Assembly (NCBI RefSeq): GCF_000970285.1 | Contig: NZ_CP009516.1 | Coordinates: 3,575,036-3,639,035 of the forward strand | Source: Methanosarcina horonobensis HB-1 = JCM 15518 | Lineage (GTDB): Archaea; Halobacteriota; Methanosarcinia; Methanosarcinales; Methanosarcinaceae | Direction of reading: 5' to 3' | DNA: 64,000 nucleotides | Part shown: positions 13,001-41,500 of the stretch, in pieces | How positions within the stretch are numbered: the stretch's first letter is position 1 | Layout of the letters: every line of letters begins with the position of its first letter | Translations under genes and position numbers: made by a program | The notes under the pieces: model-generated | The model's input: only the letters and a program-made list of their open reading frames with translations | What the model was told of the DNA's origin: nothing | Database searches by the model: none

Positions 13001-13744
13001 ATCACTTCCCCTTGACACAAGAACGGTCTGGTTCTCAGGCACAAGAGACCCCTGCACATTATCCCAGCGAATATAATTGAAATATTCATCACTTACAGAT
13101 TCGGTTGCACCTGGAAGAGAATTCCCATTCAGATCCTCATAATTGAACCCTGTAAGGTGAGTTGAATACAGGCTTGCATTCTGTACATCAGCAAGGTCTA
13201 CAGTCCCGTTGAAGTATGTGGTAGAATTCGGGACATCATATCCCAGAAAGTCAGCATAATGCATCCAGTCGCAGCCTTCTGCAACCCAGTATTCTACTTG
13301 TGGCTTAGTTTCGTTTTTCAGTATGACTACAAGAGTACTGCCGTATTGTCTGCCGTCACCCCAAGATACTGAATTGACCGTTGCAGTATTCACTTTCCCG
13401 GGATGTAGGTAATCTGTGACATCATAGGGTATCCAAGTCACACCCATATCAGTCGAATAGTAAGATGGGTTGGCCGGGAATAAGTGTCCATTGAATGTTG
13501 TGGTTATGGTATCATGGGTAGACTGGCCAGCCCAGACTCCTACATAATATCGCGCAAAAACAACAGTACCGTTTGGTACGTTAAAATTGTTTATAGAATC
13601 TTTAGAAGCCCAGTTTGCTATAGATGATACATACATCTCACCCCGCACTGTGTCGTGTGCTATTGTGGGTAAAGCCGAGGCGGTGCCGGCAAAAAGGAAT
13701 ATTACCAGTATAGAGAATATATATTTAGCGTGTTTGAATGTCAT
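10097..13744 (-). CDS. Giant dockerin surface protein: DUF3344-CARDB-PKD-VCBS-cohesin-dockerin
   Basis: 1215 residues; start ATG 13744 with AAGGTGA upstream. In order: signal peptide (ends GTASA, about 25), DUF3344 (25-265), CARDB (270-370), two PKD domains (375-455, 458-537), five VCBS/FG-GAP repeats (about 545-800, ADLDGDGDYDLLIG), CARDB (810-905), PKD (910-990), cohesin-like domain (about 995-1130, [18 protein letters not shown]) and a C-terminal dockerin. The dockerin carries two Ca-binding loops, [12 protein letters not shown] and [16 protein letters not shown] repeats are Ca-dependent beta-propeller blades often linked to adhesion. No membrane anchor is visible, so retention at the surface by dockerin-cohesin pairing is inferred. 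The last 728 bases of its coding end are identical by eye to those of 36272. The gene stands alone, 1 kb from its upstream neighbour. Confidence 0.92.
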   Translation of the reverse strand: MTFKHAKYIFSILVIFLFAGTASALPTIAHDTVRGEMYVSSIANWASKDSINNFNVPNGTVVFARYYVGVWAGQSTHDTITTTFNGHLFPANPSYYSTDMGVTWIPYDVTDYLHPGKVNTATVNSVSWGDGRQYGSTLVVILKNETKPQVEYWVAEGCDWMHYADFLGYDVPNSTTYFNGTVDLADVQNASLYSTHLTGFNYEDLNGNSLPGATESVSDEYFNYIRWDNVQGSLVPENQTVLVSRGSDTYCSVVFHGLSIVSKSPDLVPVSLTPSAVTANINNTMTATIENKGSNNSQSFNVSLMVDGKVVDTQPASELIIGSNTTVDLHWTPDGSTDIYSLSVVADPENIVVESNKDNNILNVLVGTTSAASPVADFSAGKTSGDAPLTVTFIDLSANSPTSWMWDFDNDGVVDSNVQNPTYTYTNIGNYTVKLTVANAGGNDSETKTRYIVVNPLVADFTATPTSGDAPLIVTFTDASIGSPTSWLWDFGDGTTSTSQNPTHTFTKIGTYSVKFTATNIAGNNSTTKTGHINVTGPASIGPIWIAKSEWNVPDISDSSGDRASPTLADLDDDGDYDLLIGEYNGNIYGYENTGTPSSPVWTRKIEWDAPSTGYYAFPRLADLDGDGDYDLLIGEYSGNAYGYENTGTPSSPVWTRKIEWDAPDIGSRAAPCLADLDGDEDYDLLVGASDGFSYSYENTGTTNSPVWTRKPEWDVPDIGSNAAPCLADLDGDGDYDLLIGRSSGAGYAYENTGTKNSPVWTRKTTWDAPSTSSAYPCLADLDGDGDYDLLIGATNGISYAYENTAVLADLIPDLIPTAITQPSRITSNSPCTISATINNTGPGNAEDAFNTTLSVNGTVVDTQSVSGIASGSSAEVSFSWMPESAGDYNLKVTVDPENEIAESDETNNAMTVMVTVSAASTTPVADFAVNMTSGDVPLTVQFTDQSTGIPTSWFWDFGDGTSATDQNPSHTYNAAGNYTVNLTVENAAGKDFELKSDYIEVSGASGSTVTLYFDPENSSVSENESIEINVVASNFPEGLSGYNLTVAIDDPTVAEIVDIEYPSWGLITENSSLPGTSIYLKTVDGEDTVKAGATDVVLATLTVSGKKKGSANLSIGVKRLDDDSGNIIEPAFLTGRIEVTLLSPLPDQEYAPQDLDGDGFYEDLTGNGEFSFVDIVAYFHNMDWIEENMPVEYFDFNGNGRIDFDDVVRMFAMI
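10164..10891 (-). repeat. 728-base block identical to 36339-37066
   Basis: This covers the dockerin, the cohesin-like domain and part of the last PKD domain. Reading the two stretches side by side I found no difference, while sequence on either side diverges at once. The partner copy is in gene 36272. Confidence 0.8.
11330..12110 (-). repeat. Five VCBS/FG-GAP-coding tandem repeats
   Basis: About 155-165-base direct repeats encode five copies of a blade with the core CLADLDGDGDYDLLIG followed by YENTGT and PVWTRK. Adjacent copies at 11740-11840 and 11920-11990 are almost identical in DNA, which indicates recent internal duplication. Only this gene in the window has them. Confidence 0.85.
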
Positions 13745-18070: not shown

Positions 18071-18189
18071 TTTCTATCATTGAAGGCAGGGGTTAACCAG
18101 AAAAGAATTCTGGACCTCTGCCCAATTCTCTCTGCCCTGTAAATCTTCTCTGGTATGTGGAAAGGTTAGATATTCTCATTTGGTGCTAC

Positions 18190-18550
18190 AGTTGTTAGTT
18201 TTGAAAATTATACTCCTTTAAGGGCTATTATAGCCCCGGCAAGCTCCGTAATTTCCTGACCATTACCATCCAGAACTATCAGTTCAAAACCCTCTTCATG
18301 ACCAAGGTAAAGGTGTACAGAATACCTTATCAGGTGAGAATAATGGTGCTGGATATCTGTCAGGGATTTGAAAGCTCGCGTTTTGTGCGACCGTAAATAA
18401 CTGCAATCGTCCCAATGCGATGACCTTTAATATCACCCATCCATTCGTAATAGGTAGTATAACTCGTGATGGCATCTCTTATGGCTTCCGAACGTGAAGG
18501 ATAGCCTCTCTTTTGATAATTTCATCAAATATTCCTCTGAAATTTTGCGG
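18190..18550 (-). pseudogene. NikR-like regulator, truncated and frameshifted copy
   Basis: Minus-strand sequence closely matches the intact gene at 29530-29952: FDEIIKR, then after a one-base loss in an A-run [10 protein letters not shown], the [21 protein letters not shown] segment (in pieces) and EITELAGAI. The first ~19 codons are missing; another single-base loss lies near 18370 (18368-18372) in the stretch corresponding to GLSNSLTD. The stop-bearing end reaches about 18190. It is fused head-on to a fragment of a cohesin-anchor gene. Confidence 0.8.
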
Positions 18551-18754
18551 TCGGAGTATAACCTGAAAGTCCATCAGACAGACTATCAACATCCAGGAAC
18601 AACTCACAGCTTTCCCGACCTCCGGGGAGATTTCCCCTGATGGACTAATTATAAGTGATGGAGAAGTCCCTATAAGCCAAATGCAGACCCAGGCCAAAAA
18701 AAGGATCGCAAAAGCTAAAAGTATCGATACAAAAATTCCGGATATTTCAGGCAA
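18551..18754 (-). pseudogene. Cohesin-anchor gene fragment (relic of 35282-type gene)
   Basis: A TTG at 18754 behind GAGGTGG starts a frame whose first 50 codons match the 35282-36151 protein: signal peptide MPEISGIFVSILLAFAILF and SPSGEISPEVGK. A frameshift then occurs in the CELFL region; in another frame the DNA still reads like LDVDSLSDGLSG. It breaks off after about 65 codons and runs into the NikR relic. Its position right behind a dockerin gene mirrors the intact pair 36272 > 35282, so it is the remains of a duplicated operon. Confidence 0.8.
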
Positions 18755-18861: not shown

Positions 18862-21120
18862 TTAAATCATTGCAAACATACGCACTACATCATCAAAGTC
18901 GATCCTCCCGTTCCCGTTGAAGTCTAAGTACTCCACCGGCATGTTTTCCTCTATCCAATCCATGTTGTGGAAGTAAGCCACTATATCCACGAAACTGAAT
19001 TCCCCGTTTCCGGTGAGGTCTTCATAGAACCCGTCTCCGTCAAGGTCCTGAGGGGCATATTCCTGGTCCGGCAGAGGAGACAGAAGAGTCACTTCAATTT
19101 TTCCTGTCAAAAGAGCTGGCTCTATCGGGTCTCCGGAATCATCATCAAGACGGGAAACTCCGATAGAAAGGTTTGCAGATCCTTTTTCCTTTCCAGAAAT
19201 TGTAAGAGTAGCAAGCACAACATCCGCTGCATCTGCCATAACAGTATTATTCCCGTCAACAGTCTTCAGGTAGATAGAAGTCCCGGGCAGGGAAGAATTC
19301 TCAGTAATCAGAGCCCAGGAAGGATACTTGATATCCACTATCTCAGCAACAGCCGGATCGTCTATAGCAACGGTCAGGTTGTAGCCTGAGAAACCTGCAG
19401 GGAAATTACTGGCAACGATACTTATTTCAGTAGATTCTTTTTTGTTAACAGAGGAATTTGAAGGGTCGAAATAGAGAGTAACTGTTGACCCGGAATCTTC
19501 AGAAACTTCTATGTAATCTGTTTTTAACTCAAAGCCCATGCCAGCGGCGTTTTCCACAGTCAGGTTTACCGTGTAAGTACCGGCTGATGCGTATGTATGA
19601 GAGGGGTTCTGCTCAGTTGAGTTAGCTCCGTCCCCGAAGTCCCAGAACCACGAGGTCGGTATACCTGTGGACTGATCGGTAAAATTAACTGCGAGAGGTG
19701 CAGTACCATTCGTAATATCTGCAATGAAAGCAGCAACGGGTTCAGGTTCTACAGGTGCAGAAGATACAGTGATGTAATCAGTTTTCACCTCGGAATCGCT
19801 TCCTCCAGCATTTGAAACCATAAGACTAACTGTGTAGTTACCGGCCGATTCATATGTATACGAGGGATTTTGCTCAGTTGAATCCACAGTACCGTCATTA
19901 TTAAAGTCCCAAGAATAGGACGAAACAATGCCTGTTGACTGGTCGGTGAAGTTAACTGTTAAAGGTACATCTCCAGCAGTAGGTGCCGCAGTGAAGTTGG
20001 CAATCGGAGCTTCAGGTACTGGTTCGCTAACTACAATGTACTCGGTCTTTACTTCGGAATCGCTTCCTGCTACATTTGCAACCGTAAGGTTGACAGTGTA
20101 GTTACCGGCCGCATTATAGGTATGCGAGGGGTTCTGCTCAGTTGAATCAACAGTTCCGTCGTTATCAAAGTCCCATGAATAGGACGAAACAATGCCTTTG
20201 GAGTGGTCGATGAAGTTGACTGTCAACGGTGCATTGCCTGATGTCACGTCTGCGGAGAAGTTGGCAACAGGTATTGATGGAAGCACTGTTATGTAATCGG
20301 CTTTCACTTTCGGTGTCCAGCCATCATATTTTACAATCACATCGTAAGTGCCGGGTTTGGTGTAGGTATGGATGATGTTGAAATTAGGTGAGTAATCGTA
20401 TGTCCCATCACCATCCACATCCCAGGCCCACATGTTCCAGTACTCAGGAGCCAGACCAGAAACGTTTCCCGTGAACTCTACAGTGAGAGGGACGGTTCCT
20501 TCAGTCACATTTGCTGTGAAATCCGGAGATGGGTAGATTACAGTGATATAGTCAATTTTCAGCTCGGAATCGCTTCCTGCTGAGTTGGTAACCGTAAGTT
20601 TCACAGAGTGTCTACCTTCATCAGTATAGATGAATTTTGGGTTCTGCTCCGTAGAATCCACGTCACCGTCATTGTCAAAGTCCCATTTCCAGGTATCCAG
20701 AGATCCGGTCGAGCTGTCTGTGAACTGCACTGTCAGAGGTCCGACTCCTGAAGTAATGTCTGCAGAGAAGCCGGCAACAGGGGCTGAAAGTAGTGGTTCA
20801 CTTACAGATATGTACCCAGTCTTCACTTCTGAATCGCTTCCACCTGCATTGCTTACAGTAAAGTTAACTATATAAGTTCCTTCAGTTGAGTAGGTATGCG
20901 AGGGATTCTGCTCAGTTGAGTTTGTTCCGTCCCCAAAGTTCCATGCCCAACCAGTTGCATTGGTAGATATGTCGGTGAATTGCACGGTCAGGGGTGCAGG
21001 GCCACTGGTGGTGTTAGCAGTAAAGTTTGCGACTGGTCCAACTGTCGTCACATCTGCTGACGCCAGTTCGGTCATGCACATCAGTGCAGCGATACAGAGA
21101 ATCAGAAATATTCGTTTCAT
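18862..21120 (-). CDS. Dockerin surface protein: six PKD domains-cohesin-dockerin
   Basis: 752 residues; ATG at 21120 after GGAGTGA. A signal peptide (MKRIFLILCIAALMCMT, cleavage near LASA) leads into six PKD domains, each opening with PVANFTA-like and closing with SEVKTDYI-like strands: about 27-108, 113-198, 200-284, 287-370, 374-458 and 463-545. The third is divergent. Then come a cohesin-like domain (about 550-685, [18 protein letters not shown]) and the C-terminal dockerin with [12 protein letters not shown] and [15 protein letters not shown] strings usually act as rigid stalks, so the protein looks like a spacer carrying an adapter pair. Its C-terminal 265 codons are nearly identical to those of 22881. 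Downstream lies the wreck of its former cohesin-anchor partner. Confidence 0.92.
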   Translation of the reverse strand: MKRIFLILCIAALMCMTELASADVTTVGPVANFTANTTSGPAPLTVQFTDISTNATGWAWNFGDGTNSTEQNPSHTYSTEGTYIVNFTVSNAGGSDSEVKTGYISVSEPLLSAPVAGFSADITSGVGPLTVQFTDSSTGSLDTWKWDFDNDGDVDSTEQNPKFIYTDEGRHSVKLTVTNSAGSDSELKIDYITVIYPSPDFTANVTEGTVPLTVEFTGNVSGLAPEYWNMWAWDVDGDGTYDYSPNFNIIHTYTKPGTYDVIVKYDGWTPKVKADYITVLPSIPVANFSADVTSGNAPLTVNFIDHSKGIVSSYSWDFDNDGTVDSTEQNPSHTYNAAGNYTVNLTVANVAGSDSEVKTEYIVVSEPVPEAPIANFTAAPTAGDVPLTVNFTDQSTGIVSSYSWDFNNDGTVDSTEQNPSYTYESAGNYTVSLMVSNAGGSDSEVKTDYITVSSAPVEPEPVAAFIADITNGTAPLAVNFTDQSTGIPTSWFWDFGDGANSTEQNPSHTYASAGTYTVNLTVENAAGMGFELKTDYIEVSEDSGSTVTLYFDPSNSSVNKKESTEISIVASNFPAGFSGYNLTVAIDDPAVAEIVDIKYPSWALITENSSLPGTSIYLKTVDGNNTVMADAADVVLATLTISGKEKGSANLSIGVSRLDDDSGDPIEPALLTGKIEVTLLSPLPDQEYAPQDLDGDGFYEDLTGNGEFSFVDIVAYFHNMDWIEENMPVEYLDFNGNGRIDFDDVVRMFAMI

Positions 21121-22880: not shown

Positions 22881-24704
22881 TTAAATCATTCCAAACATCC
22901 ACACTACATCATCAAAGTCGATCCTCCCGTTCCCGTTGAAGTCGAAGTACTCCACCGGCATGTTTTCTTCTATCCAATCCATGTTGTGGAAGTAAGCCAC
23001 TATATCTACGAAACTGAACTCTCCGTTTCCTGTAAGGTCTTCATAAAGCCCATCTCCGTCAAGGTCCTGAGGGGCATATTCCTGGTCCGGCAGAGGAGAC
23101 AGAAGAGTCACTTCAATTTTTCCTGTCAAAAGAGCTGGCTCTATCGAGTCTCCGGAATCATCATCAAGACGGGAAACTCCGATAGAGAGGTTTGCAGATC
23201 CTTTTTCCTTTCCAGAAATTGTAAGAGTAGCAAGCACAACATCCGCTGCATCTGCCTTAACAGTATTATTCCCGTCAACAGTCTTCAGGTAGATAGAAGT
23301 CCCGGGCAGGGAAGAATTCTCAGTAATTAGAGCCCAGGAAGGATACTCTATATTAACTATCTCGGCAACAGCCGGATCGTCGATAGCAACGGTCAGGTTG
23401 TAGCCTGAGAAACCTGCAGGGAAATTACTGGCAACGATACTTATTTCAGTAGATTCTTTTTTGTTAACAGAGGAATTTGAAGGGTCGAAATAGAGAGTAA
23501 CTGTTGACCCGGAATCTTCAGAAACTTCTATGTAATCTGTTTTTAACTCAAAGCCCATGCCAGCGGCGTTTTCCACAGTCAGATTTACCGTGTAAGTACC
23601 GGCTGATGCGTATGTATGAGAGGGGTTCTGCTCAGTTGAGTTAGCTCCGTCCCCGAAGTCCCAGAACCAGGAAGTTGGAGAACCTGTAGATTCATCCGTG
23701 AAGCTGACTGTTAAAGGCACATCTCCGGATATCGGTGATGCTGCGAATGCAGCAACGGGAGCAACAGGACCGCTGCCGCCAAAGTAGTTTTCAAAGGGCT
23801 GCATCAGGGGGTAGTTATCGGCTCCAAGGTTGTCAGGGAGGACATAAGGGGTATCGCCAATTCCGTCACCGTTGGTATCTGTGCCTGCGTAGTCAGACCA
23901 GTAATTCCCCATGTAACCAGTGTATGTCTTGCTGGAGTAGGTGTATTTGATGGGGGTAGTGGAATTCCAGTATGTTAACGCAGGTGCTGTGGTTCCACTG
24001 TATATTGTTGGGATGTTGTTTATAAAATTATTAAGATATATTGTATTTACTTCAACTGTTTTATAAAATTCGATAGAATAGTTGTTGGAACTAATGGTAT
24101 TTCTGGTTATTGTAGTGTTTGCAGCTCCAGAAAATAGAAAAATTCCCGCTCCTTTATTGTTACTGAATGTATTATTTGATATCATACAATTTCTCTTTTC
24201 TATTGTAAGGGGGGAATATGTACCGGCACTATTCGAAACGATATTGTTTTCGAATGTTAGGTTATCACAATATGCATCTATGCCTTTTGCCTGAGTTTGT
24301 CCATTAATTATACAATCTCTAATAGTTATGTCCGAACAAATTATAGAAGCAGTACCAGGGAGTACTCTATTTACTTTTATGTTTATTCCTTCAAGAACAA
24401 TTCCAGTTGCAACTCCAGAACTATCTGAAAACCTTATTTCATTACCTGGGGTATTGGGGGCGACTGTTACGACATCAGCGCTTTCTCCTATTATATTTAT
24501 ATTTGGCTTATTAACAGTGAAACCGAGGTATGTCCCTGAATAAACAAAAATTGTATCTCCAGAAGAAACGCTGTTAACAGCAGTTTGTATGTCCGCGAAA
24601 TCTGCTCCACCACTGTCGTCGACGTACCAGACCTTTGCTTCTGCAGGTATTATTACTATTGTGCAAAGAAGTAGAAATAAAAGTAGAAAGATATTTCTAT
24701 TCAT
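22881..24704 (-). CDS. Beta-helix surface protein: NosD-type repeat-PKD-cohesin-dockerin
   Basis: 607 residues from the ATG at 24704, preceded by GGGATGAT; it starts the signal peptide [14 protein letters not shown] (cleavage near PAEA). Longer in-frame starts up to 24842 add a polar, non-signal extension and are unlikely. Residues about 25-300 form a right-handed parallel beta-helix of the NosD/pectate-lyase type: [18 protein letters not shown] at the start, then [33 protein letters not shown] and [20 protein letters not shown]. Such helices commonly bind or cut polysaccharide, but no catalytic set can be assigned. One PKD (about 318-400), a cohesin-like domain and a dockerin follow. It is the only possible carbohydrate-active member of the dockerin set. 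Confidence 0.9.
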
Positions 24705-24837
24705 CGATATCATCCCATAAGTCAAATTGTCACATTCAAAATCATATTTTTGATTTAACACTAACTTTGGCCTTGTCCGTGAGTTATTATAATCTGAAAA
24801 GCCGGGAATATTCCCGAAGTTTGGAAATAATTCATTA

Positions 24838-25463
24838 GTCATCGGTTAAAGAGTTTTATTTCCTGAAAGCTATCGATTTTGCATTTCAAGTATGCATCAA
24901 ATGTTGGACTTTTTACAGGAAATCGATACCTTGTTCTAGTCCACAGTATGTTTACATATCTGTTAGTTTTCAATCCTTCATACTGTTATTGAAATCACAA
25001 ATAAGGGATATTTGGCTGCTTGAGCAATGGGCAAAGTTAATATTTTTTTTCAAGCAGCAGTCATTTTGCTTTTTATATCACCTCTTTAAAATAATTAATT
25101 TAGTCTAAAATTTTCTATAACTTCACTAGAAAGAATGTCACAAAATCAATATTTTTAAAACATGATTTATCGGAACAGCTATTTAAATTTTATTAAATAT
25201 TACAATTAATGTTTAATTAAATATTAAAAAATAGCAAAAAATTATCATTTTGTATTATATAATAAATTTCTTTGCCATTTAATACTAAAAATTATGAGTC
25301 AGGATAAGCGAAAGTAAGTTGATACGCTTAACCAAAAGATACAGAATAAAGCTGTTAGCTCACTCAATATAAGAAGCTTGCAAATGTTCAGCTCTAGAAT
25401 AAATATCAAAATAGACAAAAGTCTAAAATTCACATCTTTTGTCATCGGTTAACGAATTTTATG
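24838..25463. repeat. Two-copy direct repeat in spacer
   Basis: GTCATCGGTTAAAGAGTTTT (24838-24857) recurs as GTCATCGGTTAACGAATTTT (25440-25459), 600 bases apart. Between them is AT-rich sequence without genes. This could be a protein-binding site or the ends of a lost insert; neither is proven. Confidence 0.35.
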
Positions 25464-28826: not shown

Positions 28827-28919
28827 AAAATAAAGGTAAATCAGGGGCTATTAATACTGATTATCCTGATACGAAGGTTTATACTGCCTTCTCTTAGAGG
28901 GTGTCTTAAAATTAAATTT

Positions 28920-29529: not shown

Positions 29530-29952
29530 TCAGACCTTTTTGTTTGGGTCTACTGTAGTGAGTTTTGAGAATTTCACTCCTTTAAGGGCTATTATAGCCC
29601 CGGCAAGCTCCGTAATTTCCTGACCATTACCATCCAGAACTATCAGTTCAAAACCCTCTTCATGACCAAGGTAAAGGTGTACGGAATACCTTATCAGGTG
29701 AGAATAATGGTGCTGGATATCTGTCAGGGAATTTGAAAGCCCGCGTTTTGTGCGATCGTAAATAATTGCAATCGTCCCTACACGATGACCTTTAATATCA
29801 CCCATCCATTCATAATAGGTAATATAACTCGTGATGGCATCTCTTATGGCTTCCGAACGTGAAGGATAACCTCTCTTTTTGATAATTTCATCAAATTCAT
29901 CCAGGAGGGCATCAGGAAGGGAAACACCTATCCTCATCAATTCTGCTTCCAT
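29530..29952 (-). CDS. NikR-like ribbon-helix-helix regulator lacking two Ni ligands
   Basis: 140 residues from the ATG at 29952 (an upstream ATG at 29979 would overlap the promoter). Residues 5-45 form a ribbon-helix-helix DNA-binding domain ([33 protein letters not shown]). Residues 55-134 form the ACT-like tetramerisation and metal domain ([33 protein letters not shown]). By alignment with E. coli NikR ligands His76, His87, His89 and Cys95, this protein has His81 and His92, but Tyr94 and Gly100. The square-planar nickel site is therefore broken. It may sense another metal or act without one. A perfect palindrome just upstream suggests autoregulation. It is convergent with type B copy 2. 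Confidence 0.88.
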
Positions 29953-29977
29953 TGTATCACGTAGTAATAGTAAATTC

Positions 29978-30012
29978 ATATATAATATAATAGTTTACTA
30001 AAAATTAGTAAA
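29978..30012 (-). promoter_or_regulatory. Palindromic operator candidate for NikR-like gene
   Basis: TTTACTAAAAATTAGTAAA (29994-30012) is a perfect 7-5-7 palindrome. A third half-site, TAGTAAA, lies at 29978-29984. The TATA-like TATATTATATATG lies between them. NikR-family proteins bind paired half-sites, so this is a plausible self-binding site. Confidence 0.45.
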
Positions 30013-30793: not shown

Positions 30794-31318
30794 TCACCCA
30801 TTTTTCAAATTTGATTTTATTAAGGCTCCAAAACATTGATTCATATCTCCGATGGAAAAATCAGATATTCCATTCAAGTCAGATATCCTATTCAAGTCAG
30901 ATATTTCATTTGAATTCACAATTATGATCTTCGAGAATTTTACCCCTTTGAGAGCCGTCATAGATTTAGCAAGCTCTACCATTTCTTTGCCGTCCCCCTC
31001 CAGAACAACTACTTCAAAACAATCTTCATGACCGAGGTGAACATGCACAGAAGATCTTATCAGGTAAGAATAGTGATGCTGGATATCTGCCAGGGTATTT
31101 GAAAGCCCACGCTTTGTGTGGTCATAAGTAAATGCAATTGTTCCTACACAATGGCCTTGAATATCATTCATCAATTCGTAACTGGAAATATAACTCCGGA
31201 TAGCATCTCTTATACCTTCTGAGCGGGAAGAATATCCTCTTTTTTCGATAGCCTCATCAAATTTACCAAGAAGTGTATCCGGAAGGGAAATTCCTATTCT
31301 CATAAGTTCTGTTTCCAT
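30794..31318 (-). CDS. NikR-like nickel-type regulator with complete ligand set
   Basis: 174 residues from the ATG at 31318; an ATG four codons earlier is an alternative. Ribbon-helix-helix at 5-45 ([31 protein letters not shown]), then the metal domain with His81, His92, His94 and Cys100 ([20 protein letters not shown]). These match E. coli NikR ligands 76, 87, 89 and 95, so nickel sensing is likely. In methanogens nickel is needed for F430 and hydrogenase/CODH; which genes it controls is not visible. A tail after residue 134, including a six-residue repeat ([15 protein letters not shown]) and ending IKSNLKNG, is absent from the 29530 paralogue. It is convergent with type B copy 3. Confidence 0.88.
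30861..30914. repeat. Three 18-base tandem repeats in NikR-like gene tail
   Basis: TCAGATATTCCATTCAAG and two variants follow head to tail. They encode the repeated ISDLN(R/G) residues in the C-terminal extension, so the tail probably grew by slippage. Confidence 0.75.
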
Positions 31319-31339
31319 TATATTATCCACCAGGTGTTC

Positions 31340-32045: not shown

Positions 32046-32798
32046 GAAGTTTTACCATTTTCCATAAAATTCCTTATTTTTCAATAATATTTGATAGGAA
32101 CATCTATTTCGTAAAAAAAATTGCTTAAGACAGTTTAAAATTAATTTAATGTAATATTATGTCAGTAATTTAATTAAAGAGATTTTTAATCACACTATAG
32201 GGAAAAAAGCCTTATTTGAATTTTAAACACATAATTAATATTTATAATTTTATGCGATTTGTAGAAAAAGATTATATTAAATGTTAATTTTTTAAACATA
32301 TATAACATTAATTAGGTTCTCATTACTGGATTACATATTCAGCGGCATTTAACGGTGCTATTTTAAAGGCACTAAACGTAATTTTTTGACCAAATAAGTA
32401 ATTATAGGCCATTTTTTTGCATTTAAAGCATTATTGTCAATTTTGGCAAAACCTCAATTAAATCTTTTTGATTTTTTAACGATTATTTGGAAAGTTATCA
32501 GTGTTTTAAGATTTTTAGGATCTGTCTCTGATAAGGAGATTAATCCTGAGGAGCAAACTTTGACCGCTATCAAATACGATAAGAGCAAGTTACTTGCTAC
32601 CCTGACTAGTTTATGTTCAAGAATTGAAGGGCAGATCCCAGAAATAAACAGTTACTGTAAAGGATATTTCCAAGAATAAAAAGATGAAAATTAGACGAAG
32701 GGGATGAAAATTAGACGAATATGTGTTAGATAAAAATAAATAAGTCGAATAAATAAAAAGATTAATTTTCAAAAAAAGAAAGGAGGAAAACAGCCTTA
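32046..32798. other. AT-rich spacer with a doubtful 81-codon plus ORF
   Basis: A TTG-started frame at 32434-32679 encodes a charged polypeptide (GSVSDKEINPEEQTLTAIKY) of no recognised family. Base composition there is less AT-rich than the surroundings, so a decayed or small real gene is possible. The rest shows no feature. Confidence 0.3.
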
Positions 32799-35255
32799 TT
32801 AGGCTGCTTCCGCCCAGAAGATTATCTTTCCTGTTTTAGTCCCAGTCTCTGCATAGTCAGACGGAACCTGTAGAGACACAGCCGCATTTTCCTGGCTGTT
32901 CTTTCCTATCACTTTCAAATATTTATCCCAAATCTGGGAGTCCAGTAACAGTCCATGGCTGAAGATCGTCTCTTCAGTAGAAGAATCGTCTACTTTAGCT
33001 GTAACATTTACGTCGCAGGTTCCTTTGTTTTTGATACTGAGATTCTGAGGCTCGCTGGTTTTTCCAGGTGACAGTTCCCCGAAATCGAGGGCTGAAGGGC
33101 AGACCTCAATGGAAACTACCGGAACAATCTTGACAGTGAGGGAAACCGTAGCAGAAGAGCCGTTGCCCTGGTTCCCTGAGGACTCCGTGACCGTAACATA
33201 ATCCTCAAGAGCGTTATTTGTCTCGTCCGATTCGGTTATTGCATCTTCGGAATCCACATATACCGCAATACTGTAATCTCCAGACTCAACTGGTGTCCAC
33301 CAAAAACTGACCTTTTCACTGCTACCTGATGCAAGACCTGATACGGTCTGAGTATCCACAACCGTGCCGTTTACTGAAAGAGTCATATTAAAGGCTCCCG
33401 CGTAGCCCACACCGGTGTTATTAATAGTGGCGCCGATGTTGCATGAGGTATTTGCAGTAATTTTGGACGGAGGAGTGAGGGCAGAAACGACAAGATCTGG
33501 ATATTCCTCCTGAGTAGACGATCCGGTTACCGTAATATAATCGGTCTTCACCTCGGAATCGCTTCCATTTGCACCGGTAACCGTGAGGTTAACCGTATAG
33601 TTTCCAACTGTTGCATACGTATGTGAGGGATTCTGCTCAGTTGAATCCACAATGCCGTCATTGTTAAAGTCCCAGGCATAGGAAGAAACAGAACCTGTAG
33701 ACTCATCCGTGAAATTGACAGTGAGAGGAGCAGTGCCAGAAGTCGGTATTGCTGTGAACGCAGCAACCGGAGCTTCAGGAACTAATTCGCTTACAACAAT
33801 ATACCCGACCTTTACCTCGGAATCACTTCCTGATGCATTTGTAACAGTAAGGCTGACGGTGTAGTTACCGGCTGAAGTATATGTGTGCAAGGGGTTCTGA
33901 TCAGTGGCGTTGGTACCGTCACCAAAGTCCCAGAGCCAGGATATTGGAGAACCTGTGGATTGATCCGTGAAATTAACAGTAAGAGGGACAGTACCACTCG
34001 TTACATCTGCAGTGAAAGCAGCAACTGGTTCAGATTCTGTAGGCGTAGATGATTCCGATACAGTGATATAATCAGTCTTTACCTCAGTATTGCTCCCACC
34101 TGCACTTGTAGTAACCGTGAGATTTACAGTGTATGTTCCAGGTGAGGCATATGTGTGTGAAGGGTTCTGCTCTGTACTGTCGATAGAATCATCGTTATCA
34201 AAGTCCCAGGCCCAGGCAGTTATGCCTTCTCCACTTGACTCATCAGTAAACTGGACAGTCAGAGGAGCATCACCGGAAGTAGGAGTTGCAGTGAAGTCGG
34301 CAACAGGCAGAATTGAAGAACTCTGGACCTTAACACTTGACGCTTCGGAAATGGCATCTATATGACTGCCTGAGTCATCATCCAGGCGTTTGAAAGTGAG
34401 GGAAATGTCACTTTCTCCCGGGGCTTCAGCCACAAAAGTGACATTTGCCAGAAGGACATCTTCATCGCCCGGCTGGATGTTGGAGTTATCTACTGCCCTC
34501 AGATTAACATAAGAGGCAGGCATACTGGAGTTTTCGGAAATGGCAGCCCAGGAAGGAAATTCCACATTCGTGAACTTTCCAACAGCCGGGTTATCGAGGG
34601 TGAGGTTAAGGTCATAGCCTGAAAGACCTCCTGGGAATTTATCCGCCCTGATCTCAAAGATTTGAGATGCGCCCAAAGAAAGAGTAGATTCTGCGGGGAG
34701 AATCGAAACAATCGGATTGTCCGAGTTCCCTGCGGTCTTCCCTACAGTTAGTTTTGCTTCCAGGATAGTGACAGAAATCGTATTTTCGGAATCATCATCA
34801 AACCGGTTAACGAATACAGTGAGATTTGCTTTCCCAGAAGCAAGGGATTCTACAGTCACCTTGCCTAAAAAGACATCTGAAGCTCCTGCATTTACCTTTT
34901 CTGTCAGATCAACGGCTTTGATCTGGACAGAACCCGCCGGAAGACTTGAACTATTATTCAAACTTGACCAGGAAGGGAACTCCACTCCCGTTATCCGGGC
35001 AACCGAAGGGTCGCTTATGCTGAGAGTCAGGTTGTATCCCGAAAGCCCGGAAGGTGCCTGGTCAAGATAAAGGTTCAGACTTTCTACGGAGCCAATATCT
35101 GAAAAGACAGATTCCTGGGGCACAAAATAGAGTTCTTCACAGGCAGCCACACTCACTCCAAGGCTGAACAGGAGCAGAAGAACTGCAAAGCTTCCCAGTA
35201 AGTGTCCTGTAAACTTTTTCCCTGTTACTGTAAACTTTTTTCTTGTTAGTTTCAT
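32799..35255 (-). CDS. Two-cohesin scaffold-like protein: cohesin x2-PKD x3-CARDB-WAEAA module
   Basis: 818 residues from the ATG at 35255, which has GGAAAGG upstream; an ATG at 35270 is an alternative. A signal peptide ends near SVAAC. Two cohesin-like domains follow (about 25-175 and 180-320), each with LSGYNLTL/LSGYDLNL, SDPSVARI/DNPAVGKF, EFPSW and DDDS motifs. Then come three PKD domains (325-580), a CARDB domain (588-690) and the C-terminal module (about 705-818) beginning VSLTVKIVPVVSI and ending IIFWAEAA. It has no dockerin, so it can offer cohesins without carrying an adapter of its own. It is 26 bases downstream of the PGF-CTERM cohesin gene, so certainly in the same operon. A scaffoldin-like role is inferred. 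Confidence 0.92.
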   Translation of the reverse strand: MKLTRKKFTVTGKKFTGHLLGSFAVLLLLFSLGVSVAACEELYFVPQESVFSDIGSVESLNLYLDQAPSGLSGYNLTLSISDPSVARITGVEFPSWSSLNNSSSLPAGSVQIKAVDLTEKVNAGASDVFLGKVTVESLASGKANLTVFVNRFDDDSENTISVTILEAKLTVGKTAGNSDNPIVSILPAESTLSLGASQIFEIRADKFPGGLSGYDLNLTLDNPAVGKFTNVEFPSWAAISENSSMPASYVNLRAVDNSNIQPGDEDVLLANVTFVAEAPGESDISLTFKRLDDDSGSHIDAISEASSVKVQSSSILPVADFTATPTSGDAPLTVQFTDESSGEGITAWAWDFDNDDSIDSTEQNPSHTYASPGTYTVNLTVTTSAGGSNTEVKTDYITVSESSTPTESEPVAAFTADVTSGTVPLTVNFTDQSTGSPISWLWDFGDGTNATDQNPLHTYTSAGNYTVSLTVTNASGSDSEVKVGYIVVSELVPEAPVAAFTAIPTSGTAPLTVNFTDESTGSVSSYAWDFNNDGIVDSTEQNPSHTYATVGNYTVNLTVTGANGSDSEVKTDYITVTGSSTQEEYPDLVVSALTPPSKITANTSCNIGATINNTGVGYAGAFNMTLSVNGTVVDTQTVSGLASGSSEKVSFWWTPVESGDYSIAVYVDSEDAITESDETNNALEDYVTVTESSGNQGNGSSATVSLTVKIVPVVSIEVCPSALDFGELSPGKTSEPQNLSIKNKGTCDVNVTAKVDDSSTEETIFSHGLLLDSQIWDKYLKVIGKNSQENAAVSLQVPSDYAETGTKTGKIIFWAEAA

Positions 35256-35281
35256 GGTAAACCTTTCCATAAAAAGTTCAT

Positions 35282-36151
35282 TTATTTTCTTCTCATTTTG
35301 CTCGATTTCGGGTGAATTACCGTAAATATAATGAAGACTGATATCGAATAGATGAATCCGAACCCTGGAAGGGTACTTTTTCCGGCATCTATGCCTTTGG
35401 TATTTCCACTTTCATCTGCTTCTTCTCCAGAATTTACGGAATTCTCCGGTTTTTTAGAAGTTTCGGAACTTGAGATTTCGACATCATTTCCTAAAGAGGA
35501 GTTTTCATCAGCGGAGCTTTTCATTTCCTCTGTGGTTTTGTTTCCGATTTTTTTGTTCTCGGTTTCTTGCATTACGGAAATGGAGCTGTTGTCAGATTGT
35601 CCCCCAGAATCCGAAGTCTTAGAACCATCGCCGGCAGATGCGTTTTCTCCTACCTCAACGGTTTGTTCTTCCGAATATTCCGCTCCATCGAGCATGATTG
35701 TGTTTTCTAAGTCGTCATCCATTCTGGATACCGTGACGGTGATTCCGGTAGAGCCGCCTTTGAGTCCTTTCAAGGTGAGGACTGCAAGTTCCGCATCGTT
35801 AGCCCCTTTTCCTATGGCTTCCTGGAGGTCTACTGCTTTCAACCGTACAGAAGAGGCCGGAAGTTCAGATACATCTGTCAAGGTCGCCCACTCAGGGAAG
35901 CTAACGGCCTGTATTTCAGCAACATCCGGGCTATCCAGTTCCACAGTCAGGTTGTATCCTGAAAGCCCGTCAGGCAGGTTATCCACACTCAGAAACAGTT
36001 CACAGCTTTCACCGGCTCCCAGGGAGATTTCACCTGACGGCTCGGTTATAAGTAATGGAGAGGCCCCAGCAAGCCCTGTGCAGGTCCAGGCCGAAAAAAA
36101 GACCGCAAAGGCTAAGAGTATCGATATAAAAATTTCGGATTTTTCGGGCAA
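35282..36151 (-). CDS. PGF-CTERM-anchored cohesin protein
   Basis: 289 residues with a TTG start at 36151, set by an extended SD (GAGGTGAT) at seven bases' spacing. Signal peptide MPEKSEIFISILLAFAVFF (cleavage near AGAS), then one cohesin-like domain (about 32-165, LSGYNLTVELDSPDVAEI, SFPEW, SRMDDD). Residues 166-258 are a Ser/Asn/Glu-rich, low-complexity linker, as expected for a glycosylated stalk. The C-terminus is a textbook PGF-CTERM: LPGFG (from 261), a hydrophobic stretch (FIYSISVFIIFTVI) and a basic end (KMRRK). PGF-CTERM proteins are processed by archaeosortase A and lipid-anchored. This makes it the likely cell-surface receptor for dockerin proteins such as the one encoded 120 bases upstream. 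Confidence 0.93.
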   Translation of the reverse strand: MPEKSEIFISILLAFAVFFSAWTCTGLAGASPLLITEPSGEISLGAGESCELFLSVDNLPDGLSGYNLTVELDSPDVAEIQAVSFPEWATLTDVSELPASSVRLKAVDLQEAIGKGANDAELAVLTLKGLKGGSTGITVTVSRMDDDLENTIMLDGAEYSEEQTVEVGENASAGDGSKTSDSGGQSDNSSISVMQETENKKIGNKTTEEMKSSADENSSLGNDVEISSSETSKKPENSVNSGEEADESGNTKGIDAGKSTLPGFGFIYSISVFIIFTVIHPKSSKMRRK

Positions 36152-36164
36152 CGGATCACCTCAT

Positions 36165-36271
36165 AAAAAGTTTTTCAAAAGGGAGAAAAGGAAAAACGGA
36201 GAGAACATAAGCAAGTTTTCTCTATTTTCCCTTCGTTTTTTCTTCCTTTTTTCTTTCCTTTTTCTCCTTAA
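36165..36271 (-). other. Spacer between dockerin and cohesin-anchor genes
   Basis: It contains GGGAGAAAA..TTTTCTC..TTTTCCC runs, homologous to the tails at 9990-10096 and 18775-18861. It may attenuate transcription within the operon; at 18.8 kb the same spacer separates the decayed pair. Confidence 0.4.
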
Positions 36272-39200
36272 TCAGATCATTGCAAACATACGCGCTACAT
36301 CATCAAAATCGATCCTGCCATTTCCGTTGAGGTCGAAGTACTCCACCGGCATGTTTTCCTCTATCCAGTCCATGTTGTGGAAGTACGCCACTATATCTAC
36401 GAAGCTGAACTCCCCGTTTCCGGTGAGGTCTTCATAGAACCCGTCTCCGTCAAGGTCCTGAGGGGCATATTCCTGATCCGGCAGGGGAGACAGAAGGGTC
36501 ACTTCAATTCTTCCTGTTAAAAATGCCGGCTCTATGATGTTTCCTGAATCGTCATCCAGACGTTTAACCCCTATCGAAAGGTTCGCAGATCCTTTCTTCT
36601 TTCCGGAAACAGTTAGGGTGGCGAGCACAACATCTGTTGCTCCTGCCTTAACAGTATCTTCCCCGTCAACAGTCTTCAGGTAGATAGAAGTCCCTGGCAG
36701 AGAAGAATTCTCAGTAATCAGACCCCAGGAAGGATACTCTATATCAACTATCTCGGCAACAGTCGGGTCGTCAATAGCAACGGTAAGGTTGTAGCCTGAA
36801 AGACCTTCTGGGAAATTACTGGCAACGACATTTATCTCAATAGATTCGTTTTCTGAGACAGAGGAGTTTTCCGGGTCAAAATAGAGAGTAACAGTTGACC
36901 CGGAAGCTCCGGAAACTTCTATGTAATCCGATTTTAACTCGAAGTCCTTCCCAGCAGCATTTTCCACAGTCAGGTTTACAGTGTAATTTCCGGCTGCATT
37001 ATAGGTATGCGAGGGATTCTGATCGGTAGCACTGGTACCGTCACCGAAGTCCCAGAACCACGAGGTAGGTGTGCCTGTAGACTGGTCCGTGAAATTGACA
37101 GTGAGAGGGGCAGTACCGCCAGTTACATCAGCAGTGAAAGCAGCAACGGGTTCAGGTTCTACAGGTGCAGAAGATACAGTGATGTAATCAGTTTTCACCT
37201 CGGAATCGCTTCCTCCAGCATTTGAAACCATAAGACTAACTGTGTAGTTACCGGCCGATTCATATGTACACGAGGGATTCTGCTCAGTTGAGTCCACAGT
37301 GCCGTCATTATTAAAGTCCCAGGAGTAGGAAGAGACTGAACCAGTTGACGCATCGGTGAACTGAACCGTGAGCGGAGCATCGCCAGAAGTGGGTACTGCA
37401 GTAAAGTCTGCAACCGGTGCAGTCTCTAGGTATTCAGCCATGAGAATTGTATTCATAGCATACATGCTGTCGCCAGAGGAGCCATTCAGGTAACTCAGTA
37501 GGCGTGCGGTATCAGTGCCATCATGAATGGCTCCGGTCACATCGTAAGAAGAGAAACCCATCTGCGGATTTGATAGATAATCACTCCAGAAACCTGGGTA
37601 CTCCTGGTTGTTGAAATAGAATTTACTCTTTCCAACATCGCTTGCACTGGCCAGGATGGCTATTGCAGTAGCTTTCGAAACACCCGAGGCATTCACACCG
37701 CTGAAAGACGCATAAGCTGTGGCCTCGTCGCTGGTTACTGCATAGCTATTCCCTGCTGCGAGAATATCGAACTCATCGTTGATCCAGATCTTTCCCGTTT
37801 TTCCTGCAGGGTCGTGGTAGACAACGACCATGTACGCTCCCCACATAGCATAATCATTGCTAGCCTCAGGGGTGATGGTAATACTGTTTCCTGAGGAGTT
37901 AAACAGTGACGTTACGTTGTAGACATAAAGCCCATATGGGTAATTGTACATGCCATAACTCTTTTGATCCTTGTAGGTGGCAATCGGAGTTACGGTATTG
38001 CTGTTGAACGACATTGTAAATGCCGGGTCAGTTCCCATCTTATTGTAGCTGTACGCCTGGTAGAGCCGAGCGCTTACAACCGTTGTTCCTGCAGGGATTG
38101 GCAGGTTCGTTGATGACCATGTATATGTTTTGGCAGTCCAGTTTGCTGAATTATATGCCGTGTTTCCGGCTGAGTAAACAATCCCATGCCTTCCTTCAAA
38201 CGTAGCCTGCGTTGTTATATCGTTCCCACCGGTGTACCTCTTGCCCTTGTACCCATTATTGACAACAGTTTTTGTGAGGGTCATTGAGTTGTTAGTTTCA
38301 TCGAACTCGGAAACCTCATTATTAGAGTCTGCAGTGACCGTAATCTCCACGCTGTCTCCTAAGGTTCTAAGAGCAGAGTCCGTTATTGTAAGTGTAGTAT
38401 TTGCTCCAACTGCAAGACCGCCAGTAGCTACATTTGTATCGACACCATTAATGGTGAATTTGACCGTAAAGTTTCCAGAATCAGCCGCACCTATATTCGT
38501 AACAGTTGCCGCTATGGTATTTGTCTCATTTGCAAAAATCTCGCCAACATTCGGGGCGATTGCTGAAACAATGAGATCAGACTTCGAAGACCCATTGACA
38601 ACAATGTATCCTGTCTTTACTTCAGAATCACTTCCACCTGATCCAGTAACTGTAAGGTTGACAGTATATGTTCCAGGTTCGCTGTAAGTATACGAAGGAC
38701 TCTGTACGTTACTGTCTACAATTCCATCATTATCAAAGTCCCAGGCATATGAGGATACAGTACCAGTTGAAGCGTCAGTGAACTGAACATCAAGAGGGAC
38801 CGTTCCGCTGGTCGGGTCTGCAGTGAAATTTGCTACCGGTGCAGATTCCTGTTCTGCCTGGTATTCAACAACAAGTATCTGCTGGAGTGCGTCCATGCCT
38901 CCGCTAGTTGTGCTCTGGATGCCGAACTCGTTCACTGTTTCAGTGATATAGTTTGTTGCATTAAAGACCAAGGGACTTGCAGTGTTGGAACTTCCCATCC
39001 ATGCATTGGTTGCCACGGTATTTCCGTTGAAAAGCAGGTTTCCTTCATCGGGTCCTGCACTTCCTGCAAAACTGTACAGCATAGCGTTCACGACATTAGT
39101 CTTGTCAATAGTCATGCCGGTGAAAGGAACGTATGCAATAGCCTCTTCTGGAGTGGTCCCATAACTGGACTCAGATAACCCAAGCTCATCGCACTCTTCG

Positions 39201-41158
39201 TTAATGAAGATCTGCTTCCTGGTTTCATTAGAGTTCCTGTAGACCACGACAAGAGTGCTGGGATACAGTGCGACTTTGCCGTAAAGGTCATTATTTCCAT
39301 CGTAGGGAACCGTAACAAGGCTGTTTTCGGATGAGCTAAACTTGTCGGTTACATCGTAGACACAGAGCCCATATTCATAGTCAGCGTACCCGCCAAAATT
39401 ACTCCAATCCCTGTAGAGAATTCCGTTTCCTGTTGAGAGGTTTCCGTTCTCTATTATGTTCCCGTTGAAGTTAATGTTCAGCCACGGATACCCACCGGGT
39501 GTCTGGTCCCAGTTGTAGGCGAAATAAAGGAGGGCCTTTTCTATAGTTGAACCAGCAGGAATCGGAAGGTCGCTTGCACTCCATGTTTCGGTCCTGCCGG
39601 AACCCCAGCCTCCAACTCCTTTATAGGCAGATTCAGGCTGTGTGGAATACAAAAGGTTACCATGGAGATCAAAGGTATTTTTAGTAGTGATATTGCTCCC
39701 GCCTTCCCAGTAGATGCCTTTGCCCTTATACCCGTTGTATTTGACCAGTTTCGCCGCACTGCTCTTGTTGTTGTTGGCCTCGTTGGTTTCAGGGATAAGG
39801 TTATCCGGATCAACGCGTGCTGTGTAGGTCACCGTGTCGCCTTCAAGATTGCGTATGGTCGGGTCGATCAGGGTTACAGTGGTCTGTGCCCCGCTCCCGA
39901 GAGACGCGATGGTTGTCGTGTTTGCGGGAACCGTACCATTGGAAACGTCGCTTGCATACAGGGCGACCTGGATATTGGTGGCGGTTTCAGGCCCGCTGTT
40001 TTTGATATTGGTGATCTTCACCGAGTTTTGTTCCCTGGAAAAGACCGCACTGGCAGGTACAGGGTTCACAATGCTGGCGATGGTGAGGTCAACCTGGGGC
40101 GTCTGTTCGATTTGACTTTTTACCACAAGGAAAGCGAGCGGGATCTTGTAGAATGCTGCAGTGCCGGTACCTGGCAGGTATCTAGCATAGGCAAACATGA
40201 CACTGCTGCTGCCGGAGACAGAAGAGGTCACGTCCCATGAATCAATCCCTGAGTAGTCACCCTGCGCATCTGCGACCCTATCAAGCCCTATGTTTGTAAA
40301 TGACCCGGTCTTTGCAGATGCATCGAAGTTATTATCTGATGTTGGGAAACCGTAGTAGCCATTGTTACTTGCCATGTAATCAGCGGTGAGCTTGGCCGAT
40401 GTGATGCCGGAAAGCCCGCTGGTGTCAAATGTGGTTGTTCCAACGGCAACTTCACCCAGGTTATCCTCAGTATAGTAAGTGCAGGCGTCATGCCCCTCAT
40501 TCACCCAGTAAGTTGTCTGGGTTGTGGAGGCGGGGTCGTCGTATGCAACAACCAGCGTCACTACCTTTATCCGGCCATCATAGGAACCCGTGGAGTCAAC
40601 TTTCACCTTGATAGTATCCTCCCCAGCCTGGACCAGGTTAGTAACATCGTACCAGCTCAGGTAGTCACTTGTCACTCGGTTGGTATGGTCATTGAGCATC
40701 AGATAAGGTTCCCCGGTGCCGTGCCCTGCAAACTCGCTGTTGTCATTGCCGCCATCGCCATAGTCCCCACCCTGAAGGTAGATGAAGGGCTGTCCTTCGT
40801 CAGTTTCTGTCCAGGTGTTGTCCCAGGTCCCGTCGTTATCCCAGTCAACACTGGTGGTGTAGGTGATTTTCTTTGCATCCTGCATATGGCCGCAGTAGCT
40901 GGAGACATAGAGCCGGGCCCATTTTACCCGTCCGGATTCCGCCACAGCAGCTGCCGGCAGGGTAAACGTCCTGTCTACAGCATTAGAAAATCCTGTTGAC
41001 GGAGGGTTTCCGGAGATATAAAGGTCGCCGGTCACTGTCCCAGTCTGAACTGTAGTCAATGGGAGACCACCGACCCAGTCATCTGCAGCTCCTATGCCTG
41101 TAAACAGGACAAAGCATAGAACTGCTGAGATCCATAAAAATGAAGGTTTCCTGTTCGT
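36272..41158 (-). CDS. Giant dockerin protein with three DUF3344 modules; ACG start
   Basis: 1628 residues if started at the ACG at 41158, seven bases after GGAGG. No ATG, GTG or TTG lies in frame between a TAA at 41180-41182 and a TTG at 41059, which is beyond the signal peptide. Order: signal peptide (n-region NRKPSF, cleavage near GIGAA), DUF3344 (26-345), CARDB (350-448), DUF3344 (450-705), PKD (715-795), CARDB (800-890), DUF3344 (892-1125), two PKD (1128-1305), cohesin-like (1310-1450), and dockerin loops [12 protein letters not shown] and [12 protein letters not shown] at the C-terminus. DUF3344 marks include GRIKVVTLVVAYDDP and YWVNEGHDACTYYT. It heads the operon with the cohesin anchor and the two-cohesin protein. 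The N-terminal 980 bases are almost identical to those of 41966 and the last 728 to 10097. Confidence 0.9.
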   Translation of the reverse strand, partial: TNRKPSFLWISAVLCFVLFTGIGAADDWVGGLPLTTVQTGTVTGDLYISGNPPSTGFSNAVDRTFTLPAAAVAESGRVKWARLYVSSYCGHMQDAKKITYTTSVDWDNDGTWDNTWTETDEGQPFIYLQGGDYGDGGNDNSEFAGHGTGEPYLMLNDHTNRVTSDYLSWYDVTNLVQAGEDTIKVKVDSTGSYDGRIKVVTLVVAYDDPASTTQTTYWVNEGHDACTYYTEDNLGEVAVGTTTFDTSGLSGITSAKLTADYMASNNGYYGFPTSDNNFDASAKTGSFTNIGLDRVADAQGDYSGIDSWDVTSSVSGSSSVMFAYARYLPGTGTAAFYKIPLAFLVVKSQIEQTPQVDLTIASIVNPVPASAVFSREQNSVKITNIKNSGPETATNIQVALYASDVSNGTVPANTTTIASLGSGAQTTVTLIDPTIRNLEGDTVTYTARVDPDNLIPETNEANNNKSSAAKLVKYNGYKGKGIYWEGGSNITTKNTFDLHGNLLYSTQPESAYKGVGGWGSGRTETWSASDLPIPAGSTIEKALLYFAYNWDQTPGGYPWLNINFNGNIIENGNLSTGNGILYRDWSNFGGYADYEYGLCVYDVTDKFSSSENSLVTVPYDGNNDLYGKVALYPSTLVVVYRNSNETRKQIFINEECDELGLSESSYGTTPEEAIAYVPFTGMTIDKTNVVNAMLYSFAGSAGPDEGNLLFNGNTVATNAWMGSSNTASPLVFNATNYITETVNEFGIQSTTSGGMDALQQILVVEYQAEQESAPVANFTADPTSGTVPLDVQFTDASTGTVSSYAWDFDNDGIVDSNVQSPSYTYSEPGTYTVNLTVTGSGGSDSEVKTGYIVVNGSSKSDLIVSAIAPNVGEIFANETNTIAATVTNIGAADSGNFTVKFTINGVDTNVATGGLAVGANTTLTITDSALRTLGDSVEITVTADSNNEVSEFDETNNSMTLTKTVVNNGYKGKRYTGGNDITTQATFEGRHGIVYSAGNTAYNSANWTAKTYTWSSTNLPIPAGTTVVSARLYQAYSYNKMGTDPAFTMSFNSNTVTPIATYKDQKSYGMYNYPYGLYVYNVTSLFNSSGNSITITPEASNDYAMWGAYMVVVYHDPAGKTGKIWINDEFDILAAGNSYAVTSDEATAYASFSGVNASGVSKATAIAILASASDVGKSKFYFNNQEYPGFWSDYLSNPQMGFSSYDVTGAIHDGTDTARLLSYLNGSSGDSMYAMNTILMAEYLETAPVADFTAVPTSGDAPLTVQFTDASTGSVSSYSWDFNNDGTVDSTEQNPSCTYESAGNYTVSLMVSNAGGSDSEVKTDYITVSSAPVEPEPVAAFTADVTGGTAPLTVNFTDQSTGTPTSWFWDFGDGTSATDQNPSHTYNAAGNYTVNLTVENAAGKDFELKSDYIEVSGASGSTVTLYFDPENSSVSENESIEINVVASNFPEGLSGYNLTVAIDDPTVAEIVDIEYPSWGLITENSSLPGTSIYLKTVDGEDTVKAGATDVVLATLTVSGKKKGSANLSIGVKRLDDDSGNIIEPAFLTGRIEVTLLSPLPDQEYAPQDLDGDGFYEDLTGNGEFSFVDIVAYFHNMDWIEENMPVEYFDLNGNGRIDFDDVARMFAMI
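40117..41095 (-). repeat. ~980-base block nearly identical to 44665-45643
   Basis: Constant offset 4548. Only a handful of single-base differences are seen (for example CACTCGG/CACCCGG and GTCGCCGG/GTCACCGG). It encodes the N-terminal DUF3344 module of both giant genes. Downstream modules of the two genes are clearly more diverged. Confidence 0.8.
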
Positions 41159-41500
41159 AAATTTTCCTCCTGTACCGTATTAGAGAAAGAGTTCCAGAGG
41201 TGTGTAACAGTCCCTATCAAAGAAGTAACAGTAATCCAACCAGAAATCAACCTGTTTCAAAAAATAATACCAAATTTTTGTCATTGTGATTTTAAGAATC
41301 TTGTAATGTATTTTCAACAAGATAGCATTAAATTATTCCTTTATCTTATAGAACCCTCTTTGACAGATTGCCTTCTCAAAAATGCTCTACAACTTCTTCC
41401 CATTTATGCTTAAATATTATTACTAATTAATATTTTATTAACAACATTTCAGATATATCAATCTTTCTAAATGTGTCTTAAAGATACAAAAGTTCATATT
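41159..41500 (-). promoter_or_regulatory. Conserved leader of ACG-start gene 36272
   Basis: GGTACAGGAGGAAAATTT ends it at the ACG. Upstream are GGGAAGAAGTTGTAGAG (about 41390) and AAAGATTGATATATCTGAAA (about 41451-41470), both repeated before 41966 and, more weakly, 46642. The latter includes the likely minus-strand TATA box. The mRNA leader is about 280 bases. Confidence 0.5.

Follow-up and report, generated by a model that had tools for sequence, protein, structure and literature searches.

INTRODUCTION

The described systems that come closest to the locus studied here are the clostridial cellulosome and the cohesin and dockerin proteins of other archaea. In the clostridial cellulosome (type I/II, X-dockerin dyads), cargo carries a C-terminal dockerin with a further module beside it, a cohesin is anchored, and stem-loops have been found to set the stoichiometry in C. 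cellulolyticum (PMC4423207, PMC10311766). Among archaea, cohesins and dockerins are already known from Archaeoglobus fulgidus, from ANME and from M. maripaludis (PMC11452385 for the last), and archaeal cohesin-dockerin pairs have been reported as verified specific binders (work cited in PMC9012536). The ANME surveys (PMC9012536, PMC5244752) describe surface proteins with multi-cohesin-plus-dockerin chains and propose that these take part in cell contact and in attachment to the envelope. How non-anchored giant proteins are retained on the archaeal surface is a largely open question.

We analysed a window of 64,000 nucleotides (G000:C1:3575036-3639035) from the complete 5.02-Mb genome of Methanosarcina horonobensis HB-1, which holds an island of cohesin (COH) and dockerin (DOC) modules. 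The island is like the clostridial cellulosome in its presumed plug-and-socket logic, in the C-terminal dockerin of its cargo, in its putatively anchored cohesin and in having a module beside the dockerin (best Foldseek chains, 3kcp_A and 4fl4_C), but its candidate anchor is a PGF-type archaeal tail and the cohesin itself occupies the place beside the dockerin. The label "cellulosome-like," given to the locus in an earlier note, holds for the plug-and-socket logic only; no catalytic cellulase domain was detected in the cargo proteins scanned. With the non-cellulosomal cohesin of A. fulgidus (2xdh) the island cohesin shares its fold (Z 15.4, 3.5 A over 132 residues), an archaeal host and the lack of a cellulose context; sequence identity is only about 16-18%, however, and the island cohesin is fused to a dockerin, belongs to a receptor-cargo operon and is missed by PF00963. 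The ANME proteins are likewise archaeal surface proteins, and some ANME loci belong to the same COH/DOC family (L076, L087), but the surveys rest on library domain annotation and are not known to describe the anchored-receptor operon or the dyad. Finally, a canonical Pfam locus in the same genome (G000:C1:2621843-2622657; L001, L002), where a cohesin protein with a PGF tail adjoins a dockerin stretch, matches PF00963 and PF00404 and is another locus and another sequence family. What is new, then, is a divergent COH family, a coh-doc dyad that serves as a cassette at the C-terminus, and a conserved anchor operon, on none of which a publication was found in the open-access literature (most subscription journals lay outside the scope of the search). 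Standard domain models miss most of its cohesins, which is apparently why the system had escaped notice.

RESULTS AND DISCUSSION

Three-gene operon in a cohesin-dockerin island

Open reading frames confirmed the coordinates and the minus-strand order of the three genes described previously, namely 36272 (dockerin), 35282 (cohesin and PGF tail) and 32799 (two cohesins). The first gap is 120 bp, as had been stated, and the second is 11 or 26 bp, depending on the ATG chosen. The features of the operon and of the other cargo genes are as follows.

36272..41179, minus strand: cargo gene of the type X-COH-DOC; three DUF3344, three CARDB and three PKD, then cohesin and dockerin
36488..36898, minus strand: cohesin module of the dyad type in the 36272 protein (family profile and fold)
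36275..36496, minus strand: dockerin tail at the C-terminus of the 36272 protein; a pair of 12-residue Ca-loop motifs and an extra DxDGDGxYED loop
35282..36151, minus strand: receptor candidate 35282; signal peptide, one N-terminal cohesin, Ser/Glu-rich linker, PGF, TM and basic tail
35639..36061, minus strand: cohesin module of the anchor-tailed 35282 protein (family profile)
35285..35377, minus strand: PGF-type C-terminal sorting/anchor tail of 35282 (TLPGFGFIYSISVFIIFTVIHPKSSKMRRK), assigned by motif and also present in orthologues
32799..35270, minus strand: operon gene 3; two N-terminal cohesins, three PKD, CARDB and a C-terminal "FWAEAA" domain
34731..35144, minus strand: cohesin 1 of 32799 (family profile)
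34314..34718, minus strand: cohesin 2 of 32799 (family profile)
32786..32811, minus strand: terminator-like hairpin at the operon end; a near-identical stem follows 41966 at 41953-41978
10097..13744, minus strand: cargo protein 2; DUF3344, CARDB, PKD and FG-GAP, then COH (10313-10723) and DOC (10100-10321)
18862..21120, minus strand: cargo protein 3; six PKD, then COH (19078-19488) and DOC (18865-19086)
22881..24842, minus strand: cargo protein 4; NosD-type beta-helix and PKD, then COH (23097-23507) and DOC (22884-23105)

Since terminator-like hairpins follow both 32799 and the preceding gene 41966, these three appear to be transcribed as a single unit. Family profiles counted 7 copies of the COH family and 4 DOC tails genome-wide, and because all of them sit in the island of a 5.02-Mb genome, their clustering goes beyond chance. 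All 15 DUF3344 domains of the genome also fall inside the same island (G000:C1:3569923-3624412, that is, window 2-49377 plus upstream sequence), where an ABC ATPase gene (4396-5079) sits amid the DUF3344 genes.

The product of 32799 has two cohesins and, set against a cellulosomal scaffoldin, carries no CBM, dockerin or anchor, so that its earlier designation as a possible scaffold is unsupported. Its C-terminal domain of ~115 aa, ending in FWAEAA, is common to the proteins at 32799-35270, 41966-45829 and 46642-49425, finds no confident match in Pfam and may be another attachment or assembly tail.

Identity of the cohesin and dockerin modules

PF00963, the Pfam cohesin model, gave zero matches among the island proteins, and the scores of PF00404 (dockerin) lay below its cut-off. 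Family profiles were therefore built, and it is through these and through the fold, not through the Pfam search that had been recommended as a check, that both the cohesin modules and the C-terminal dockerin tails are supported. The five COH modules of the window that were aligned match over ~137 residues and have the motifs LSGYN, PSW and LDDDSG in common. An AlphaFold (AF2) model of the coh-doc dyad, built on an alignment of 36 natural sequences, reached a pLDDT of 95.1 and a pTM of 0.81. Its best PDB matches in Foldseek were cohesins or cohesin-X-dockerin chains (3kcp_A, E 8.8e-11; 2xdh, 9.0e-10), and structural alignment with VIA-align gave a Z of 15.5 to 6kgd_A and 15.4 to 2xdh; by all three methods the module has the nine-strand jelly-roll fold of cohesins. 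A dyad profile run against PDB sequences also retrieved a dockerin (2y3n_B, 2.4e-5) and a cohesin (5lxv_A, 2.7e-4). The five-row COH profile retrieved nothing from the PDB sequences and deeper alignments did match; a single-sequence PDB search with the genome's canonical cohesin found no match either.

When family members were scanned singly at E<=0.01, Cohesin was the commonest Pfam match of the COH set, with weak matches to PF00963 in 5 of 32, and Dockerin_1 (PF00404) that of the DOC set, with 25 of 32. The PF00963 threshold is a limit of the library, not a structural criterion for a cohesin. As in a type I dockerin (about 60-70 aa), the DOC tail has two 12-residue Ca loops, each followed by a helix in the model; the first and last Asp of both loops (D24..D35 and D56..D67) are invariant across 32 rows, and the extra DxDGDGxYED loop lies upstream of them.

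Dyad tail on interchangeable cargo

The further dockerin-tailed proteins reported at 10097, 18862 and 22881 are present, with PKD, CARDB, FG-GAP (VCBS-like), NosD/beta-helix and DUF3344 modules. All four dockerin proteins, 36272 included, carry one cohesin immediately N-terminal of the dockerin, a module absent from the earlier note, whose presence changes the possible topologies. The tails of the four are very alike and their bodies differ, so within the island the plug module stays constant while the cargo is interchangeable. A second genome of the same genus (G149; 5,751,492 bases) has COH-DOC tails on PQQ propellers, beta-helices and BspA-type LRRs. Across the loci compared, 137 of 138 DOC modules end <=12 aa from the C-terminus. 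Receptor-type and dyad-type cohesins cluster apart, the nearest neighbour belonging to the same class in 101 of 116 cases (shuffles: mean 58, maximum 84).

That the cargo is made of adhesin-like modules instead of cellulases, as first proposed, was borne out by Pfam scans, which detected no catalytic glycoside hydrolase (cellulase or hemicellulase) domain in the island cargo and five relatives. DUF3344 has been placed among predicted-adhesin clusters of ambiguous function (PMC9210967). Its model (pLDDT 82.6) resembles two jelly rolls, as in carbohydrate-active proteins, with a best Z of 11.4 to the beta-sandwich region of GH86 and 9.7 to PNGase F. An enzymatic role was considered and set aside, given that these matches span half-domains only and leave the function unsettled. 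The cargo modules thus point to adhesion, and display would serve adhesion or cell-envelope interactions.

Putative anchor tail of 35282

The earlier note had placed an anchored receptor in the operon. An anchor-like tail is indeed found on 35282, where a PGF motif, a TM segment and a basic end are retained in several orthologues, although the PGF-CTERM model, TIGR04126, gave no match to it. The genome encodes archaeosortase A (E 4.7e-80). Among Methanomicrobiales, many COH genes lack a clear TM tail.

Conserved gene order and co-occurrence

The three-gene order [X-COH-DOC][COH + PGF tail][COH...] recurs in G149 (two copies) and in Methanococcoides-type genomes, with G093 and M. seepicolus among the genomes that have it. 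A two-gene order, with a DOC cargo followed by a COH protein that often bears a C-terminal anchor, extends to other Methanosarcinaceae, ANME, Archaeoglobaceae, Methanomicrobiales and haloarchaea. For COH genes without DOC, a same-strand DOC gene lay <=1.2 kb upstream in 56 of 61 cases and downstream in 3 of 61; many of these loci were retrieved via DOC motifs, which biases the presence of DOC and leaves its side and strand unbiased. Such wide conservation of the receptor-cargo order fits mutual binding. In several Methanosarcina (L058-L063) and Methanomicrobiales loci, the COH gene next to a DOC-only cargo is a separate one, as in the canonical arrangement of receptor and cargo.

At E<=1e-10, COH was carried by 109 of the 391 genomes sampled from the phylum (about 28%), 60 of these carriers being without any PF00963 match. 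Both modules were found in 96 genomes, COH only in 13, DOC only in 9 and neither in 273; the corresponding numbers of genera were 49, 4, 2 and 77. Frequent fusion of COH and DOC into a single chain makes part of this co-occurrence automatic.

Probable receptor-cargo surface display and its alternatives

Folds, confinement to the island, gene order, co-occurrence and the C-terminal position of the dockerin are observed. Together they make non-cellulosomal receptor-cargo surface display the best reading, and one that we regard as probable; secretion, lipid anchoring and cohesin-dockerin binding are the steps that we infer. Secreted cargo with exchangeable modules (DUF3344, PKD, beta-helix and FG-GAP; PQQ propellers and LRRs in relatives) would end in a Ca-loop dockerin. 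Beside the lead cargo, 35282 would supply a short secreted protein with an N-terminal cohesin, a disordered-looking linker and a PGF-type tail, which archaeosortase A would presumably cleave, linking the protein to a membrane lipid. Each cargo dockerin would then plug into the 35282 cohesin in a Ca-dependent manner, so that cargo without an anchor of its own would be retained on the cell surface and one receptor gene could serve many cargoes; the window has four COH-DOC proteins versus one anchored COH gene, and G149 has 23 versus two, along with two COH-COH genes. The dyad cohesin may play a supporting part, as the X module does in X-dockerin dyads, or provide a further socket, and 32799, with its two cohesins, might act as a bridge or a branch point. 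If this is true, a divergent cohesin-dockerin family present in 109 of 391 genomes would constitute a general mechanism of retention, and its pairs could provide new orthogonal archaeal parts for protein assembly.

The main rival, which we judge unlikely, is a self-assembling fibre, in which each dockerin would plug into the dyad cohesin of the next subunit and the resulting head-to-tail chains would be tethered by the anchored cohesin, with the two cohesins of 32799 as a branch point or cap. It draws on the cohesin that every island dockerin protein has of its own, whose full fold is predicted to be kept, on COH-COH-DOC and COH-DOC-COH-DOC proteins in other loci, and on G149, which encodes 23 COH-DOC proteins. 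The DOC-only cargo of other Methanosarcina and of Methanomicrobiales, however, indicates that the dyad cohesin is dispensable, and the separate clades of receptor and dyad cohesins suggest that the two may differ in partners or that the dyad cohesin has lost binding.

More doubtful is that the modules do not pair at all, the cohesin being a beta-sandwich spacer and the Ca-loop tail binding S-layer, glycan or membrane, or capping the protein. Some genomes carry a strong DOC without COH, or the reverse (in G161 and a few others, DOC was present and no COH was detected), and Pfam matches in the COH/DOC proteins are mostly to EF-hand and PKD families. Against this stand the genus-level co-occurrence (49 with both versus 6 with a single module), the strict DOC-then-COH gene pairs from Methanosarcina to haloarchaea and the existence of unfused DOC and COH pairs in operons.

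Start of gene 36272 and decayed copies

The gene boundary at 41158 given earlier is not a canonical start codon. The frame of 36272 reaches 41179 and contains no ATG, GTG or TTG before the signal peptide, its earliest in-frame start being a TTG at 41059; a 4-base deletion lies upstream, relative to the region before the paralogue 41966 (window 41060-41320). This copy may be damaged, may use a rare-codon start or may contain a sequence error. Two decayed copies lie beside cargo gene 18862.

18540..18754, minus strand: decayed duplicate of the anchor-tailed cohesin gene; 59% identity to residues 1-56 of 35282, then frame shifted
18169..18557, minus strand: decayed NikR copy after the anchor remnant; 88-92% identical to the NikR at 29530, frame broken

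Both are downstream of 18862 and mirror the main operon. Here the cargo was kept and the anchor lost, which fits one receptor for several cargoes. That the whole island is decaying and the system non-functional in this strain, its lead cargo gene deprived of a start and the other copies reduced to remnants, is very improbable. The missing canonical start of 36272, its 4-base deletion and the remains of anchor and NikR genes at 18169-18754 and 27971-28831 speak for it. Against it, long intact frames are seen for the remaining cargo genes, for the anchor gene and for 32799, and the related genes of G149 are long open frames and amplified.

Spacer hairpin and NikR neighbours

Three further elements adjoin the genes.

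36160..36271, minus strand: spacer hairpin in the cargo-anchor gap; an AGGTGAT ribosome-binding site adjoins the TTG start at its downstream end
30794..31330, minus strand: second NikR-type regulator, the nearest gene downstream of the operon
29530..29979, minus strand: NikR-type nickel-responsive regulator downstream of the operon

A long purine/pyrimidine hairpin was predicted in 6 of 6 homologous cargo-anchor spacers folded (z -1.5 to -5.8), and the AGGTGAT site is invariant in these spacers. The hairpin of the window outdoes shuffled sequences by a modest margin (z -1.85; 12 of 200 shuffles did equally well), and its role therefore rests on recurrence in relatives. It recalls the intergenic stem-loop of the cip-cel operon (PMC4423207, PMC10311766) and might be a parallel to the stem-loops that set stoichiometry there.

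NikR also adjoins the coh operon in G149. General nickel regulation of the system, considered on account of these neighbours, was set aside, as NikR is not adjacent in G134, G136, G093 and G096. On Methanoperedens plasmids, NikR and Co/Ni transporters occur close to DUF3344 genes (PMC9674854). Remnants of NikR were found in the island at 18169-18557, 28682-28831 and 27971-28081.

It is tempting, and in our estimate quite unlikely, to combine these elements: every cargo would be both plug and socket and would assemble into receptor-tethered fibres, the hairpin would set a high cargo-to-anchor ratio, and NikR may tie expression in Methanosarcina to nickel. Such fibres would be an archaeal analogue of a polymerising scaffoldin without the scaffoldin.

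Other members of the family

In two Methanococcoides-type operons (L044, 9885-12512; L045, 412-2772), gene 3 encodes one cohesin, PQQ-like repeats and a C-terminal helical-repeat pair, which resembles a dockerin without Ca loops and is a possible adaptor. COH and DOC modules of the family, including a COH-DOC-COH-DOC arrangement, were also found in bacterial MAGs (L096 and L097, Bipolaricaulota; L127, a Spirochaetes MAG), which suggests inter-domain transfer or a binning error.
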